Below, one piece after another: positions 29,066 to 39,643 of a DNA stretch of 39,656 nucleotides. The first letter of the stretch is position 1; each line of letters opens with the position of its first letter. Made by a program: the position numbers and the translations under genes. Source of the stretch: Candidatus Methanophagales archaeon (lineage in GTDB: Archaea > Halobacteriota > Syntropharchaeia > Alkanophagales > Methanospirareceae); contig JAPWVK010000172.1 of NCBI GenBank assembly GCA_029241965.1, positions 1-39,656 of the forward strand, given 5' to 3'. A model generated the notes under the pieces. The model saw only the letters and a list, made by a program, of their open reading frames with translations, did not search any database and had not been told where the DNA came from.

Positions 29066-31297
29066 ATGCAAGATAATCAAAAAGACCGTTGGACCGAATG
29101 GATTGAAACTCCAGAATACATCGAACGACTGCAGGTAATAGAAAACTATGTCAGAGATCTGTCTGAGCAAACCGATACTAGCTACTATACCCCCCACGAT
29201 GCCAGTCACTGTTTAGCAGTTGAAAAGATGGTAAAAACCTTGATTGAAAAAAGCGAAGTCAAACTTAGCGATTTAGAGAACTTTATTCTATTCAGCGCCG
29301 TTTGGACGCATGACTTGGGAATGTTCCAAAACATAGCAACTGAATTTTTCAAAGTCCAAGATATCCCTGTCCGTTCACCGCGGATTATTAGAGATATACA
29401 CGATGAGATATCAGCATGGCGTGTATCTTCCGAGAGTGGAGAGATTCTAAGAATCCCGAGTGAGAGAGGAGATAAAAAATCCAAAGCTGTAGTTGACAAC
29501 ATGTTAAGAAACTATGCTTATACTATAAATGTTATAAGTCAATTTCACCGCATGAAGATGGATATCAAGGATTGCCCCAGAGAGAGATTCTTAAAAGGAG
29601 AGAAAATAAGGGCACGTCTGTTAGCCTGTCTCTTGAGGTTGGGGGACACGCTACATGTTGACTCCAGTAGATTCGATCGAAGGCTCTACGATATCTTACA
29701 AATAGGGCAACTCGATAGAAGTGCAAGACTTCATTGGCTCAAGTCGTATGTAGTGTCTAACGTGTACTTAGATCCTAAAACGGAAACTGTGTTTATCAAC
29801 ATCGACCTTCCAGAATCTAGCAAATCTTCTCAGAGCAACGAAGTAAACTGGGAGGAGAGCAGCAAAAACCTCCAAACTGTGATTATTAATGGTATTTTCG
29901 AGGATGTATTGGCTGTTAGGGAAACATTTATGGAATATGGGTTGCCGGCCTATTCAATGGTAAAACCCAATATCACTTTCGTTCCGGGATATTCAGAGAA
30001 AGATCGTAAGGAAATAGCAGGTGTAATAAATGATCTTGGGATTGCCTTTTCCCCCAACACATCCAAAGTCATAGAGAAAGCGCTCGATAGTGTCACGTCT
30101 CTATGCAAGACCAACTTTGAGAAGAGCGAACGTTTTTACAACCAAATGACCCAATTGCTATTATATCTGAAGGAAATGTACGACTTGCGACCCTGTCACG
30201 TGGGGCTTGGTAAGATAATTAAAGATGTAGATGAAGTATTTGAACCCCCCGGTAGTGACCATATGGACGTAACAAGTGCGCAGGTAGTGGAATCCAAAAA
30301 GCGGATTGTCGATAAAATCAACGGAATCAAGGCGACAAGGAGTGGCTTCGCGCAGGGTCTGTATGCCAAGTGCAAAAACGACTTGCTAAAAGAAAACGAC
30401 TTGCTAAAAGATGTCGAAAACATAATTCTTTTTGCATACAGTGAAATGGTAATCAAGTTTCTTGTGGAGTATGGCAAGTACCACTCTTCATGGAAAGATA
30501 AACTCAAACTCTTTGTATTTGAATGCAGTGGAAAAAAGCGTCTTGCGAGCAACAATGATATAGAATACAACGATGGCCTATACTATGCACTCCAGTTGTC
30601 GAAGCGCAATTTCAAGAAGATCCAGTTATTGTCAGACACCTCCTTTGGTTCTCTTGTTTATAATTTGACTAATAAGTATTTGTTTAGCTGGGACAATGTA
30701 TCTGAAATCGACAAAGCTAGACTCTTAAAGTACCTCAAGGATAATCACGATATTAGCGGGGTGGAAAGTGCAAAAATCGAGAAATCAGAAGACAACAAAA
30801 CCATTCGCATCTTTAAGGATAAAGACACCCTCGCCGAAATAACGGTTGATGATGCAGAGGAAAACGCGACCTTAAAGATCAGCGGTGGTGGAACCCACAA
30901 CCTGACAGTTGAAAGGACGAACGGCAAGCTAAACATATACAAGAATAACAACGAGATAGCCAAGTCTTTGGTCTTATTTGGGGTCAATGGCATTAGTGAG
31001 GATGATTATGATTGCGGGCACACTTCAGGGCATCTCATGCTTGCAATTGTAGCAAATCATTTTCAAATACCCGTTAAGATTATAGCAGACAGTTTCAAGA
31101 TAGGAAAAATAGAGTGGAACCCCACAGCTAAGAGAAAAACTCCGTGGCTGACGGGTCAAAGAGACACTCATAATGACATAGAAAAACACAACATCGAACT
31201 TATAAACTATTTGGAGGATAGAATTCCGCTAAAGCTGATAAACGAGATAATCAAAGATGGAGATAATATACCAGGGGGTCAGGATTTAGCTGATTAA
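29066..31297 (+). CDS. HD domain fused to eIF2B-like (ISOCOT-fold) domain; candidate conflict or stress protein
   Basis: A 743-residue fusion. Residues ~20-300 form an HD phosphohydrolase-like domain with H48 (DASHCLAVEK), H82-D83 (WTHDLGMF), H161 (FHR) and D194 (LRLGDTLHVD), all expected ligands. Residues ~410-740 resemble the eIF2B alpha/beta/delta fold: NIILFAYSEMVIKFL, KLFVFECSGKKRLASNN, KKIQLLSDTSFGSLVY, then SLVLFGVNGISEDDY, HTSGHLMLAIVANHFQIPV and KIIADSFKIG. Between them (~541-631) a beta-rich, charged insert interrupts the second domain. Plausibly the second domain binds a nucleotide or sugar phosphate and controls HD hydrolysis; this is inference. It precedes a stem-loop and an AT-rich HEPN-like gene pair. 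Confidence 0.8.
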   Translation: MQDNQKDRWTEWIETPEYIERLQVIENYVRDLSEQTDTSYYTPHDASHCLAVEKMVKTLIEKSEVKLSDLENFILFSAVWTHDLGMFQNIATEFFKVQDIPVRSPRIIRDIHDEISAWRVSSESGEILRIPSERGDKKSKAVVDNMLRNYAYTINVISQFHRMKMDIKDCPRERFLKGEKIRARLLACLLRLGDTLHVDSSRFDRRLYDILQIGQLDRSARLHWLKSYVVSNVYLDPKTETVFINIDLPESSKSSQSNEVNWEESSKNLQTVIINGIFEDVLAVRETFMEYGLPAYSMVKPNITFVPGYSEKDRKEIAGVINDLGIAFSPNTSKVIEKALDSVTSLCKTNFEKSERFYNQMTQLLLYLKEMYDLRPCHVGLGKIIKDVDEVFEPPGSDHMDVTSAQVVESKKRIVDKINGIKATRSGFAQGLYAKCKNDLLKENDLLKDVENIILFAYSEMVIKFLVEYGKYHSSWKDKLKLFVFECSGKKRLASNNDIEYNDGLYYALQLSKRNFKKIQLLSDTSFGSLVYNLTNKYLFSWDNVSEIDKARLLKYLKDNHDISGVESAKIEKSEDNKTIRIFKDKDTLAEITVDDAEENATLKISGGGTHNLTVERTNGKLNIYKNNNEIAKSLVLFGVNGISEDDYDCGHTSGHLMLAIVANHFQIPVKIIADSFKIGKIEWNPTAKRKTPWLTGQRDTHNDIEKHNIELINYLEDRIPLKLINEIIKDGDNIPGGQDLAD

Positions 31298-31494: not shown

Positions 31495-32229
31495 ATGTTG
31501 TATAAAAATGATTTGAATAAAATTATCGATAGATTGATCAATGACATTAATTCCTGTTTTATGGAGTTAATAACTGGTTATTTAAAAAATGAATTGGGAC
31601 AGAACACTCTGAGCCAGTTTGCTAATCAAGGTTCTATATCTCCAAAAGTAGGGATGGATTTACATATGGAACCAATTCCAATAGTTGATATTAAAAAATT
31701 TAGTGATAATAGTCCATACTTTTTATCTGAAGTATTTCATGGTAAATTAGTACAATTGTGGAACAATTGCTTACACGATATTTTTTTATTATTTATTGAT
31801 TTAGATTTTACAGGGAAAAGAAACTTTGAAGAGCTTAGTGACCTCTCTTTCAGATTGTTTTTTAAGTCAAATGGAAAAAATTGTAGTCACATCAAAAATG
31901 AATTTATTAATGCTTTTGATTTTAAATCATATGCTTATAAAGTAAAATTAATAAACAAAATCTTAAATTTGAATAATGTTGGCGGAGACGAATTAGCCAT
32001 TATACGAAAGAATGTATCTATAAGAAACGCTATTCAGCATAGAAAGGGTGTTATAGATTTGTTTAATCTAAAAAACCTTGGATCTTCTCAAATCGAAATT
32101 CTTGATATGAATGGAAAAATAAATGTATATAAAGAAAATGATATAATAGTATTATCTATTCCTGAAATTTATTTATTAAAAAAATCAATGTTATATATTG
32201 GACATGTATGGAGGGTAAAAGATGACTAA
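31495..32229 (+). CDS. HEPN-like protein (candidate RNase), first gene of AT-rich pair
   Basis: A 244-residue protein I do not recognise by full family. Near the C-terminus it has IRNAIQHRKGV, with R177-x4-H182, the Rx4-6H pattern of HEPN-domain RNases and nucleotidyltransferase-like partners; the surrounding helices fit a HEPN bundle. The coding DNA is far more AT-rich than the housekeeping genes in this window, suggesting transfer. The Shine-Dalgarno GAGGTGA at 31482-31488 sets the ATG at 31495. It overlaps the zinc-ribbon gene by eight bases, so the two are translated together. A toxin or defence-effector role is inference. Confidence 0.6.
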   Translation: MLYKNDLNKIIDRLINDINSCFMELITGYLKNELGQNTLSQFANQGSISPKVGMDLHMEPIPIVDIKKFSDNSPYFLSEVFHGKLVQLWNNCLHDIFLLFIDLDFTGKRNFEELSDLSFRLFFKSNGKNCSHIKNEFINAFDFKSYAYKVKLINKILNLNNVGGDELAIIRKNVSIRNAIQHRKGVIDLFNLKNLGSSQIEILDMNGKINVYKENDIIVLSIPEIYLLKKSMLYIGHVWRVKDD

Positions 32230-32455
32230 TTATTCAATGGATATTATATCAAAACCAGAAGAAGGAACAGCATCTATTTTATCCTGGTCTGGAGAGAAAG
32301 GTACGTTTGCGGTGATTAAAGGTGAAGGAAACGATAATTATATTTGCGGAGTATGTAATAATGTCATTTGTCAAAACGTCAATCGGGGGCAAATAAGTAA
32401 TTTGGTTATTATTTGCCCAAATTGTGGTAATTATAATTTTATCAAAGGGACGTAA
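32222..32455 (+). CDS. Small zinc-ribbon protein, partner of the HEPN-like gene
   Basis: A 77-residue protein with C42-G-V-C45 and C65-P-N-C68, a four-cysteine zinc ribbon, joined by an NRGQISN segment. It starts inside the HEPN-like gene (ATGACTAA overlap, GGAGGGT Shine-Dalgarno) and shares its AT-rich composition, so the two probably form one unit. Zinc ribbons of this size often bind nucleic acid or a partner protein; antitoxin or regulator is the natural guess but not proven. Confidence 0.65.
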   Translation: MTNYSMDIISKPEEGTASILSWSGEKGTFAVIKGEGNDNYICGVCNNVICQNVNRGQISNLVIICPNCGNYNFIKGT

Positions 32456-34848: not shown

Positions 34849-36603
34849 TCAAAAATCCTCAAACGGATTACCTACCCAAGGTGTATGAAAGCTACCTATT
34901 ACTTTCGTGTTAAAAATCTCTTTTGCCTCTCCTAATTTTTCAACAAGCTCCTCATAACTTATATTAAAAAACTCATTGGCTACCGCAGTTCCAAACGTTT
35001 CGTCATATTTTATCCCTTTAAACAACTTCGAGGAAAACCCTCTCAAATAAACGGATGATTGTGGGATCCAATAAGGAGAATACCGATCCATTGGAGGTAT
35101 AACCGAATATACAAAGTATAGCAAATCAACATCTATTATTCGCTCTCTCAAATCATATTCAAACGGAATATCTTGACTTTCTATTAATTGACATAGGTAA
35201 TGCATGTGAGGAACAAGCCACTTTCTCCCCTTTTCTTTCGCCTCCTCCTCATTTTTTACTTCGATGAAACGCGCATAAGTATCCCAATCTAAAATCGGTT
35301 CCATTCCATCTTTTGTGTAATTCAATCTTTTTATCTCTAATAAAGAATGAAGTAGCTTGAAAGCCTTATTTTCTAATAAAATCCCTCCAATGATTTCCAA
35401 TAGAGTGAAGAAATAGTAGTTCACCAATCCCTCTTTGCCATATTGACTTTGATTTTTATTCAAAGATTGAATTTCTTCAAATAGGGGCAATATCCTTTCC
35501 CAATATTTGTTTTGGTATTTAATTATCTGCTCGGCCAAACTCAAAAAGTTCAGTGAATAATTGAAAATCTTTAAGTATCCGTCCCATAGAGATTCGTAAT
35601 TTCCTTCATCTACTTCAGCTAAGATATTTTCAAAATATTTTTTGAGTTTTCTTCTTTCTTCATCAATGGTCTGTTTTATCTCAATATCCGGGCTGGATGT
35701 AATTAGATTCTTGAACCTGACTTGTGCGACCGCCTCCGAAGTCTGTTCAGTTCCTTTTCTTGCAATTTCGACCCTATTCAAAACTTCTTCCAGAAACTCT
35801 GAAGCGCTTTGTATATCAATAAAACGACCATCTTGCCTTTCTACTAACTCTTTTACATTGTCATTAATTTGATTGTCGTGAACAGTCCAAAAAAGAGTGT
35901 ACCCTTTAAATCTCCTTTTGCTGAAACCATCCATCACAGCCTTATCCTCTTTATTACCTGCATAGCCTAACACAATTACGCCGTGTCTTTCGATAATGTC
36001 TAAGAAATCTCTTTCAATAGCGTCATTTAATTTCTCCAAATCCTTTTTGGTGTTCTTTATCACTCCTTGTTCAATAGTGCCATGAACCTTATAAATGCGG
36101 CAATTCTCTACATGATTCCATGGCTTGCTTGTCAAGACTTGCTCTCCATCTGTAATAACAGAATATTTTCCCCTTAACCCTGCATCATCTAGCGAATGTT
36201 CGATTGAAGAGTCAAAATTAGTTGTGATGATAAATCGGATTAACTCTGCTTTTACCCATTCAGCAATTAACTTATGAGCTTTCCCGGGTGCTTTGTTCTC
36301 AAAGAATTTCTCTAAAAACTCTCTTTGTTCCTCTCGTGAAGGAAATAAACTTTCAATGATCTCAGAATAAGTAGAATCCTTAAAGTTCTTTTCATAGTAA
36401 GCTTCCATTTCCTTGTCAGTATATTCCTTGCTCTCGCCATCCTCTTGAGCCCTGATGCGTCTTAATGCCTCTAAGAGGACATGCCAGCCGGTGGGGATAC
36501 TAGCATCTTTTGATACCCCTGCTCCGCAAAATAGAACATGCTTCTTTTTCCCATCAGCGAGATTGTAGGAAAGCGGAAGTATCGGGTTAATGTTTACTGG
36601 CAT
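34849..36603 (-). CDS. SIR2-domain protein (candidate NADase defence effector)
   Basis: A 584-residue protein whose first ~270 residues form a SIR2-like NAD-binding fold: G27-AGVSKDASIPTG39 (NAD loop), T127-T128-N129-F130-D131 (sirtuin TQN-like motif), K172-V-H174-G (catalytic His) and VLGYAGNKEDKAVMD. The C-terminal ~310 residues, helical with Trp- and Glu-rich stretches, are unknown; they could be a sensor or binding region. SIR2 proteins beside restriction systems are a common defence layout in which NAD is depleted on infection. It ends FEDF with TGATGA, and the decayed methylase tail follows on its 3' side. Confidence 0.8.
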   Translation of the reverse strand: MPVNINPILPLSYNLADGKKKHVLFCGAGVSKDASIPTGWHVLLEALRRIRAQEDGESKEYTDKEMEAYYEKNFKDSTYSEIIESLFPSREEQREFLEKFFENKAPGKAHKLIAEWVKAELIRFIITTNFDSSIEHSLDDAGLRGKYSVITDGEQVLTSKPWNHVENCRIYKVHGTIEQGVIKNTKKDLEKLNDAIERDFLDIIERHGVIVLGYAGNKEDKAVMDGFSKRRFKGYTLFWTVHDNQINDNVKELVERQDGRFIDIQSASEFLEEVLNRVEIARKGTEQTSEAVAQVRFKNLITSSPDIEIKQTIDEERRKLKKYFENILAEVDEGNYESLWDGYLKIFNYSLNFLSLAEQIIKYQNKYWERILPLFEEIQSLNKNQSQYGKEGLVNYYFFTLLEIIGGILLENKAFKLLHSLLEIKRLNYTKDGMEPILDWDTYARFIEVKNEEEAKEKGRKWLVPHMHYLCQLIESQDIPFEYDLRERIIDVDLLYFVYSVIPPMDRYSPYWIPQSSVYLRGFSSKLFKGIKYDETFGTAVANEFFNISYEELVEKLGEAKEIFNTKVIGSFHTPWVGNPFEDF

Positions 36604-36760
36604 AGCACTTCCTCACCCCCATTACTGCTGTCTCTACGTTCACTCTTAACCACCAACTCTTTTTAGAGTTTATTCGCATATAAAACTTTTCTCGTTTCAA
36701 CTTTCCACTGCGACAAAGAAGATACACACAATAACAGTGCAAATGGCATGACCTCTTCAC
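36604..36760. other. Gap between the restriction-modification and SIR2 genes
   Basis: 157 bases with no gene. AT-rich; it must hold or lack a SIR2-gene promoter, since the upstream gene could read through. Confidence 0.4.
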
Positions 36761-39643
36761 TCACCCCCTCTCCACCATCTTCACTTCCGCCTCCGTCAGC
36801 CCGTACAAATCATAAACCAACCTATCAATCTCCGTATCAACGATCTTTATCTGCCGTTCGTAAAGCTCTTTATCTCGCTCCATTCTCGCATCGTGATATT
36901 TCTTCTGCAGTTCAAGCATGCTCTCCACCAAAGCTACGAGTTTATCGTGCTGTGCTTTTTCGGCTGGGTTTGAGAAGTCAATGGTGCGGATTGGTAGTTT
37001 CTTAAGATTCACTACTTTTACTTCCGCAAAAACGCGGCCTTTCTCAGGGATTAGCCCCTGATACCACCAAGAAATGAGTTTTGAGTTCAGTAAGCCCAGA
37101 AGATAGGGGTACGATAGTCTATTATCATTTATGCGTAGGTTATGTACATTTTTAAGAGACAAATATTGGTTGGTATCCATATTGGCAATAATCGAATCAG
37201 CAGTCTGTCGGATAACAATTTTGACTGAGTCATCAAAAGGTGCTTTGTATCGAGGTTCGGCAAGCCAATCGCCGTAGCGTATCCAACGCTCCTTTTGCAA
37301 TTGCCAAGTGTATCGGTGAAAATCACGTCCCATAATGTATTGACGATAAGTTATATCCTTCTTGAGGTCAGCATCAAATACCCGGTTCTTCACTGTGTGT
37401 TGACTCTGTGGCGGCTTACCCTTACCTTTTCGGTAGGGCGTAAGACCGCAAATTATAGTAGCTAAATCTCCATGACGCAGGTGTTCATCAGATATCCTTT
37501 TAAATAGGGCTTGTGCAGAGCCGTACTTAGATTGGCACAGATTTGATTCCTTCTGAGCGAGTACTTGGTCTTGCGAAAGAATTTCTACAGAGCCCTCGAA
37601 TGAGCTTGGTTTGTTGGATACCTCTTTAAATTGGATTCGCACACTTGTGGGTTTTTTATTTACAACTGTTTCTATGCAAGTTTCGACGGTAACGTTTTCA
37701 AAAACAGGACTTCGGAATAGTACTATCTGGTCAACGGTAATGTTTGAGAGAAGTAATTTTCTCAGATCAACATATGACGGCATATAGAGCCATGTTGAAG
37801 GTAAAATAAAAGCTTGCCGGCCACCTATCCGAACAAGGTTTAAAGCTTTAATGAGGAAGAGCACAAAGGAGTCTGTAATTGGAACAGGCACTCGATATTT
37901 ACGGGAGAGAAAGTGACGAACATCTTGAGAAAACTCAGCCCCATACGGCGGATTCCCCACTACCGCATCGAAGCCACCACGTTTCATAATCCCTCCAAAC
38001 CCTTTCACATCATCATCCCAGTCAAACACATTAACCCGCCTCATCTCCGCTTCATCAAACAGCATTTCCTGCTGCTGCTCGTAATAATCCACCCCAATCA
38101 ACGAATTCCCGCACTTGATATTACCCTCCAAATTCGGCAGCACACCCTCCAGCCCTAACTTCACCTGCTGGTCTATGCTCTCGCGGCTCTCGTGCTCCAG
38201 CACCTTCAACAGCAAACTCAATTTCGTTACCTCTACCGCCTGCGGGTCAATATCAACGCCAAAAATACTATTCAAAAGAATCCGCTTCTTCTCCGCCGTA
38301 GTCAAATACCATTCGTTCTCGCGAACCTGAAATACCGCCTCTTTATGCTTCTTCGGCTCGTTCCCCACGTACCAGTCCAGATGATACCTCAATAAATACG
38401 TGTACGCACCAATCAAAAAACTGCCTGAGCCACACGCCGGATCCAGAATTTTAATCTCCGCAATCTCTTCCGGCGGCTTCCCCTTCCCTTCAACTAATTT
38501 ACCCACCGTGTTCTTCACAATGTAATCCACGATGTATTGCGGCGTGTAATACACGCCACCCGCTTTTTTAACTTCCGGCTTTGTCTCCACCTTCGCCTGA
38601 TGCCCTGCGGTCAGCCGGATGACTTTACCCAGAAACTGCTCGTACACGTTCCCTAAAATCTCTACGCCGAGCACCGAAAATTCATACGGCGACTTCGGAT
38701 AATACAGACTTTGAATAATCGTCTTCAAAACGCGGTCGTCAATTCTCAACCCCGGCGTTATCCTGTCCGTGTCAAAATCGAATATCCCGCTGTCGTATTT
38801 CGATTCCGCAAGTCTAAAATGGTTCAGCAAGTGCGTGTACACGTCACCAGATTCCGCTATCGTCTGCAACTGCCCGTACGGTTCGATTGCTCGGTCTTCG
38901 CAAATCCGCAGGAAAATTATTCTGTCAATGATTTTCTGCACCGCATAGTTCAATTCGTAAATGGACACGTCAGGATTTCTGAGTGCGATGTTTTTAGCCA
39001 GCAGTTCTCGCCAGCTCTCTATCTCCTTTAGAAATTCGCTGTCCACTTCTGCAGTGCCTTTCTTACCCTTGGTTGATTCTGCGTACTTATCAAAACCACC
39101 TTTGAGCACCGCTTCTTTTGAAAATACGTCGTATATCGCATCAAACTTATCGCTGTCGAGATAATCCTCAAACGTGTAGTACGCGATTCGCCCCACACCG
39201 GATTTGTCGTTTGGATTGGGCTTGATTCTGCAGTCGAAAACCGAGAACTCCTCAAAATCCGTTACGACCGACAACGGCAGTTTTGCACTCCACGCATACC
39301 GCCTCAGTTGATATGCCGGGCTGACGTCCTCTTTTATGTTCACCGCAGGTTTCTTCGCTTCGACAAAGAACTTCCTTTGACCGCCAATTCTGAAACTATA
39401 ATCCGGTGCTCTGGTTGAACGCCCGACTTTTATTACATCTTCGTAAATGACCTCTTTGTATTGCTCTGCAAAGCCCTGTTTATTGCTCACGTCCCAGCCA
39501 AGCGCTTCAAAGAACGGGTTAATGAATTCTATTCTTACTTGCGCTTCGTTATACGACGATTTTTTGTAAACGTCGAGATTACGCCTGAATCGCTCAACGA
39601 GTTCTCCAAACTTTTGCTTTGCTTGTTCTTTTGTGTACGTCAT
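36761..39643 (-). CDS. Single-chain restriction-modification enzyme (type IIG-like, Eco57I-type)
   Basis: A complete 960-residue protein. The N-terminus has a PD-(D/E)xK nuclease-like site, D81 in APDYSFRI with E95 and K97 in VEAKKP. Adenine N6-methyltransferase motifs follow: D401-PACGSGSF (SAM loop) and N564-PPY (catalytic). A TaqI-like target-recognition region (~residues 700-900) contains TPYRKGKG and KNVHNLRINDNRLSYPYLLG, ending in a helical tail (PAEKAQHDKLVALVES). It cuts and methylates DNA from one chain. Start ATG at 39643, 13 bases from the window edge, so any upstream partner lies outside. Confidence 0.88.
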   Translation of the reverse strand: MTYTKEQAKQKFGELVERFRRNLDVYKKSSYNEAQVRIEFINPFFEALGWDVSNKQGFAEQYKEVIYEDVIKVGRSTRAPDYSFRIGGQRKFFVEAKKPAVNIKEDVSPAYQLRRYAWSAKLPLSVVTDFEEFSVFDCRIKPNPNDKSGVGRIAYYTFEDYLDSDKFDAIYDVFSKEAVLKGGFDKYAESTKGKKGTAEVDSEFLKEIESWRELLAKNIALRNPDVSIYELNYAVQKIIDRIIFLRICEDRAIEPYGQLQTIAESGDVYTHLLNHFRLAESKYDSGIFDFDTDRITPGLRIDDRVLKTIIQSLYYPKSPYEFSVLGVEILGNVYEQFLGKVIRLTAGHQAKVETKPEVKKAGGVYYTPQYIVDYIVKNTVGKLVEGKGKPPEEIAEIKILDPACGSGSFLIGAYTYLLRYHLDWYVGNEPKKHKEAVFQVRENEWYLTTAEKKRILLNSIFGVDIDPQAVEVTKLSLLLKVLEHESRESIDQQVKLGLEGVLPNLEGNIKCGNSLIGVDYYEQQQEMLFDEAEMRRVNVFDWDDDVKGFGGIMKRGGFDAVVGNPPYGAEFSQDVRHFLSRKYRVPVPITDSFVLFLIKALNLVRIGGRQAFILPSTWLYMPSYVDLRKLLLSNITVDQIVLFRSPVFENVTVETCIETVVNKKPTSVRIQFKEVSNKPSSFEGSVEILSQDQVLAQKESNLCQSKYGSAQALFKRISDEHLRHGDLATIICGLTPYRKGKGKPPQSQHTVKNRVFDADLKKDITYRQYIMGRDFHRYTWQLQKERWIRYGDWLAEPRYKAPFDDSVKIVIRQTADSIIANMDTNQYLSLKNVHNLRINDNRLSYPYLLGLLNSKLISWWYQGLIPEKGRVFAEVKVVNLKKLPIRTIDFSNPAEKAQHDKLVALVESMLELQKKYHDARMERDKELYERQIKIVDTEIDRLVYDLYGLTEAEVKMVERG

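Follow-up and report, generated by a model that had tools for sequence, protein, structure and literature searches.

The window (the whole stretch of DNA analysed here, 39,656 nucleotides from a Candidatus Methanophagales archaeon) contains an intact gene in which an HD-CE domain is followed by an eIF2B-like half, and a mobile element lies in frame within that half. Among 149 related genomes scanned with the whole protein, we found one close relative (63-67% identical) in genome G071, which belongs to another class than the window's genome; the G071 copy carries an internal TGA. The features of the locus are as follows (window coordinates).

29066..31297, + strand: host gene for the HD-CE / eIF2B-like protein; ORF of 743 aa, ATG start, intact, with the mobile element in frame inside
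29183..29803, + strand: HD-CE domain, residues 40-246 (Pfam PF24391, E=5.5e-30), with the HD metal ligands
30428..30675, + strand: presumed first part of the eIF2B-like half (LFAYSE, FECSGK, and DTSFGS blocks), from conservation in the G071 relative
30668..30675, + strand: 5' target-site duplication ACTAATAA, identical to the 3' copy at 6/8 positions
30676..30940, + strand: protein-coding mobile element, 265 bp, encoding residues 538-625 (YLFSWD...KLNIY), from its ends, duplication, and empty site
30676..30691, + strand: left terminal inverted repeat GTATTTGTTTAGCTGG, the first 14 bp identical to the IS66 left end
30925..30940, - strand: right terminal inverted repeat, read on this strand as GTATATGTTTAGCTTG, matching the left repeat at 14/16 positions
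30941..30948, + strand: 3' target-site duplication AAGAATAA; the empty site in G071 reads AAGAATCA
31022..31258, + strand: eIF2B-like C-terminal part, residues 653-731 (Pfam PF01008, E=1e-5)
31495..32229, + strand: downstream ORF of 244 aa with a HEPN-like R-x4-H motif (RNAIQH), from the sequence

The host gene and its neighbourhood

The original prediction had described an HD domain joined to an eIF2B-like second half, and had proposed profile searches for both. The HD-CE profile PF24391 matched with 105 bits against a Pfam cut-off of 27, and the HD metal ligands H48 (in HDASH, residues 44-48), H82-D83, H161, and D194 were all found at the positions that the prediction had cited. The eIF2B-like assignment held for the C-terminal part: the match to IF-2B (PF01008) was above the cut-off but covered only profile positions 194-274, and the profile gave no match over the LFAYSE, FECSGK, and DTSFGS part (30428..30675), where the prediction had placed the first of its ligand-binding blocks. 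The uninterrupted G071 relative gave the same partial PF01008 match. A single-sequence fold model of the whole window protein was poor; only the insert (about residues 550-610) rose above a pLDDT of about 58, reaching near 60-77.

The architecture of HD-CE plus eIF2B-like half was found in 2 of the 394 genomes of the phylum, namely in the window gene and in G071. No relatives of the whole window protein were found in the genome contig collection, viral contigs, plasmids, or phages. The window's own genome encodes a second, stronger HD-CE domain (212 bits; G000:C149:5199-5948, L001) in a 963-aa ORF. A search of the open-licence full-text literature found no mention of the term "HD-CE domain".

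The HEPN-like ORF downstream, which had no Pfam match, may be associated with the HD-CE gene or simply adjacent to it. It is followed by a 77-aa zinc-ribbon ORF, weakly similar to Mu Com (32222-32455), and a SIR2-like PDC-S65 homologue and a type IIG restriction-methyltransferase lie on the minus strand (34849-39643). In G071, a TIR-domain gene (TIR_2/ThsB_TIR, L023:11972-12817) stands directly 3' of the HD-CE/eIF2B gene, and the two genes possibly form a two-gene system. The PADLOC models did not match the HD-CE/eIF2B protein. A TIR gene follows the G071 copy, and the HEPN-like ORF and the SIR2 (PDC-S65) and type IIG genes lie near the window gene, which agrees with a plausible, if weakly supported, defence or stress role with changing effectors. 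The absence of a PADLOC match, the lack of a Pfam match for the HEPN-like ORF, the rarity of the architecture, and the internal TGA of the G071 copy speak against such a role.

Borders, ends, and reading frame of the insert

The charged, beta-rich segment that the original prediction saw interrupting the eIF2B-like half, at about residues 541-631, is real, and its exact borders are residues 538-625. Its codons occupy 30677-30940, with one leading G at 30676, and it would lie in a loop that joins the DTSFGS helix to the LVLFGVNG strand. The G071 relative aligns with residues 1-537 and 626-738 and has no DNA between them; the gap in the protein alignment is exactly 91 codons, the predicted 265 + 8 nt. 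The target duplication of the window copy has decayed to 6/8 (ACTAATAA and AAGAATAA). When the 149 genomes were scanned, the stretch of about residues 534-630 had matches of its own in many proteins of the window's family that are otherwise unrelated.

The segment had been read as an original component of the sensor in a new HD-CE/eIF2B defence protein. The HD-CE and IF-2B profile matches would suit that reading, as would the TIR gene directly after the G071 relative and the SIR2 and restriction-modification genes near the window gene. However, the segment is absent from the G071 relative and present in unrelated proteins; this refutes its identity as a native sensor, which we consider extremely improbable. 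Given the terminal inverted repeats, the target duplication, the empty site, and the unrelated hosts, the segment is instead best read as a mobile element.

In more than 25 copies of the first set, the left end is TATTTGTTTAGCTGG and the right end AAGCTAAACATATAC, or close variants of these; the two ends form an inverted repeat, and they are conserved across 84 distinct copies. In the same 84 copies, identity between the two flanks peaked at a length of 8, one base 5' of TAT and zero bases 3' (after TAC), with z=13.2. The 8-bp duplication signal persisted in 130 copies (z=13.4), with five perfect 8-mers against 0.05 expected, and it was still z=11.6 when one random copy was taken from each independent host/site cluster (n=83). 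Copies are 252-291 bp long (300 bp in one nested copy), commonly about 262-265 bp, with no transposase inside. At the common lengths, the element, the leading base, and the duplication add up to 270 or 273 nt, a multiple of three, and the measured lengths were divisible by 3 in 130/130 copies. The end codons are conserved beyond codon usage (AGC, 0.76 against 0.19 expected; ATA, 0.83 against 0.34), as a constraint at the DNA level would predict.

Full copies lie in the host frame in 132 of 134 cases; 101 are well inside the host ORF, 20 near the N-terminus, 11 near the C-terminus, and 2 have no recognisable host. About one-sixth of genic copies would be in frame by chance, and four of the five freshest copies were in frame (p=0.003 at 1/6). 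As the copies were found by protein profile, by which decayed non-coding copies would be missed, the figure of 132/134 partly reflects survivorship. All 104 of the 104 matches listed in the 394-genome scan were free of stops, and in a scan of 22 genomes one copy among the matches listed contained stops. A DNA-level search of 51 genomes of the family added only short partial matches to those of the protein search. A recent copy with a perfect target duplication (AATCCATT) is intergenic (L156/L292, G056:C60, about 609-869). Thus, insertion is not confined to genes.

The encoded domain and its hosts

The element encodes an 87-aa domain that is under purifying selection. When the inverted repeats were excluded, the remaining interior codons gave a median dN/dS of 0.36 over 1357 pairs, and pairs of orthologues with the copy at the same site mostly gave 0.16-0.28 (RNA polymerase A' and CDC48); the exceptions were one CDC48 pair (0.37) and a nearly identical RNA polymerase A' pair, for which a value of about 1 derives from very few changes. 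AlphaFold2, run with 48 copies, predicted a compact alpha/beta domain with high confidence (pLDDT 95, pTM 0.84), consisting of one helix (10-24) and seven strands. The predicted last strand (84-87) and the first bridge (3-4) are encoded by the two inverted repeats, and the DSSP strands of the model suggest that the two ends of the domain are adjacent. Foldseek searches of PDB and BFVD found no solved or viral fold relative at E <= 0.001, and sequence searches of Pfam and PDB with the domain found no credible relative.

The hosts are dozens of unrelated archaeal genes. Those named by Pfam include RNA polymerase A', CDC48, LonB, the DNA primase large subunit (PriL), and a FecCD permease, as well as RadC, a CRISPR RAMP protein, an ion channel, a histidine kinase, and PRPP synthetase. 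By named records, copies occur in ANME-1, ANME-2, Methanoperedens, Methanosarcina, Argoarchaeum, and Altiarchaeota, with up to 29 copies in a genome (Methanoperedens LC 1; 26 in Altiarchaeales WOR_SM1_SCG). In the window's phylum, at least one copy was found in 46 of the 394 sampled genomes; most of the genomes surveyed are MAGs. Searches of viral contigs, phages, and plasmids gave no copy, and neither did the 11 genomes of the class of G071. In one contig binned as Omnitrophota, the gene of a TIR-KAP-FGE protein (L111:354-3506) carries a fresh insertion that is in frame and flanked by a perfect duplication (TCGGAAAG); this copy shares 84% identity with those of ANME-1, so that the contig may be archaeal DNA assigned to the wrong bin.

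The RNA polymerase A' copy is common to the window's genus (g1) and genus g6, in genes of 1049-1066 aa, and several other genera of the family have genes of 882-905 aa without the element. In genera g2, g4, and g13 (L305-L307 and others), RNA polymerase A' is 1013-1064 aa long, with a different, unaligned stretch at the place where g1 and g6 carry the element; this stretch may represent other inserts or diverged copies. In Altiarchaeota, LonB contains two copies, and nested or tandem copies occur in RadC and in ORFs of 785-788 aa (L109, L119, L264, L140, L283, and L284); the same hosts have thus received in-frame insertions repeatedly.

In the case of WOR_SM1_SCG, the element lies inside an IS1634-family transposase gene, in the catalytic region (where the profile match is interrupted at 148/152), and the gene is identical on six contigs (L274, L275, L276, and L288-L290). 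Beyond the same left end, each of the six copies has a different genomic context. Six dispersed identical copies indicate that the insertion sequence spread after acquiring the element, which suggests that the enzyme works with the insert, unless the copies were moved by an intact transposase.

A conserved, folded domain under purifying selection, found at one site across genera in RNA polymerase A', could also be an ordinary domain that was spread by gene fusion or recombination and recruited in each host as a regulatory or binding module. However, its borders are DNA inverted repeats flanked by 8-bp target duplications, an exact empty site exists, and the hosts share no common function. The repeats and duplications refute gene fusion as the mode of spread, and we regard this reading as very unlikely.

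The presence of the segment in essential genes without evident loss might suggest that it is removed after transcription or translation, as a minimal intein or an intron, and is thus invisible to the host protein. In contrast to this expectation, 87 aa is far below the size of known inteins, and the splicing residues are absent: position 1 is Tyr in 81% of copies rather than Cys or Ser, position 87 is Tyr in 85% with no terminal Asn, and the +1 residue is variable, with no conserved nucleophile. The frame and the amino acids are conserved, which would be needless for an RNA intron. An intein is therefore rejected, and removal in either form has scarcely any likelihood.

It is harder to decide whether the element, taken as a mobile insert, is tolerated as a selfish sequence or has a positively selected function, such as binding a common partner, so that its capture in frame benefits the hosts. 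The dN/dS of 0.16-0.28 in most same-site orthologue pairs, the long retention in RNA polymerase A' and CDC48, and the several conflict-type hosts (TIR-KAP-FGE and RAMP) would favour a function. However, purifying selection is also expected merely to keep an insert folded and harmless, the hosts are functionally heterogeneous, the same genes in related genera lack the insert, and no fold relative points to a function. A positively selected role thus seems to us rather unlikely, though clearly less so than the alternatives above.

Candidate transposase and comparison with known elements

IS66-family transposases are common in the window's family. Elements of 1532-1543 bp with a transposase of 470-472 aa were found in G004 (of the same genus as the window), G002, G014, G030, and G042; their left end is GTATTTGTTTAGCTACC, and their ends are close to GTATTTGT[T/A]TAGCT. 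The element in G030 is flanked by a perfect 8-bp duplication (GTAATTTA). In the window's own genome, a complete IS66 element with these ends was not found, and the IS66 contig inspected there (L221) lacked such an end. Because the ends and the duplication length are shared, an IS66-family transposase probably mobilises the coding element in trans. Ends like those of the coding element also occur on other elements in these genomes. In G018, a 138-bp non-coding MITE (L179:4147-4285) whose ends are related to these (GTATGTGTTTAGST) is flanked by a perfect 8-bp duplication (TTTTATTT), and other end-like sites in that genome suggest several copies of it. Two further candidate partners were set aside. 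For L176, where a DDE_Tnp_1 transposase adjoins a GTATGTGTTTAGCT end, the search gave no second end that matched the first and had a duplication beside it; L170, with zf-IS66 and DDE_Tnp_1 fragments, is cut by a contig end, and thus the complete IS66 elements were taken instead.

The coding element has the properties by which MITEs are recognised, namely inverted repeats, a target duplication, many copies, short length, the absence of a transposase, and an autonomous element with the same ends in the same or related genomes. Taken as a whole, the segment is very probably a non-autonomous, protein-coding transposable element (a coding MITE), likely moved by IS66, that encodes a fold which hosts would tolerate in frame. 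This explanation is preferred because of the inverted-repeat ends, the 8-bp duplications, the single frame in dozens of genes, the lengths in multiples of three, and the conserved domain, all obtained by computation.

In the proposed mechanism, an IS66-family transposase would act in trans on the coding element, whose ends are the same as its own. Insertion on one strand and in one phase would leave the host gene open. As the fold is compact and the inverted repeats encode its first and last strands, the insert would sit in surface loops of the host without destroying its function. Non-coding and out-of-frame copies would then be lost, and in-frame copies would be held for a long time by selection on the host. 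We infer that hosts tolerate the insert and that the fold evolved for insertion. Somewhat more probably than otherwise, in our judgement, the niche of the element is the gene interior: selection would have shaped its only product into an insertion-tolerant fold, its repeats would at the same time encode the first and last strands, every in-frame insertion would give the host protein one more domain that folds by itself and does no harm, and some copies would have lasted in core enzymes such as RNA polymerase and CDC48.

Among known families, HD-CE (PF24391) and IF-2B (PF01008) match the two host halves, and the combination is seen only in the window and G071 among the 394 genomes. The element itself resembles the IS66 family (PF03050 transposase) in its 8-bp target duplication and in ends that start with GTA, and it has the same left end (GTATTTGTTTAGCT) as the ANME-1 IS66 element; unlike IS66, it lacks a transposase, and its interior encodes a domain. 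It is like non-coding MITEs such as the 138-bp G018 repeat in its related ends, the same duplication length, and its non-autonomy, whereas those MITEs lack a conserved translated domain. Inteins are likewise mobile in-frame inserts in essential genes; unlike them, the element has no splicing residues, is much smaller, transposes by way of inverted repeats and target duplications, and should stay in the mature protein.

By analogy, the nearest known kind is the Rickettsia palindromic element (RPE; Ogata et al. 2000, 2002). According to the summary in PMC10969869, RPEs are short bacterial repeats of about 150 bp that lie in frame in unrelated genes and are translated with the host, and only about half of the R. 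conorii RPEs are in genes. The archaeal element is similarly inserted in frame in unrelated genes and translated within the host protein. In contrast, it is about 262-265 bp long, has terminal inverted repeats and 8-bp duplications that match IS66, and has a compact predicted fold, and almost all of its copies are in frame; its length, taxon, and ends differ from those of the RPEs. In the open-licence full-text literature, we found no description of an archaeal coding MITE like this one, and the only close precedent found is that in Rickettsia.

The element would thus represent a route by which a protein gains a whole folded domain at an arbitrary position in one step, in core genes and in at least two archaeal phyla. 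It explains puzzling beta-rich inserts in archaeal proteins, and such inserts may mislead domain annotation and structure prediction. In Archaea, the ends and the duplication can be named together with a likely transposase, an empty site, a fold, and the selection on that fold, so that insertion tolerance and the gain of domains by transposition, for which Rickettsia offered the close precedent, become directly testable.
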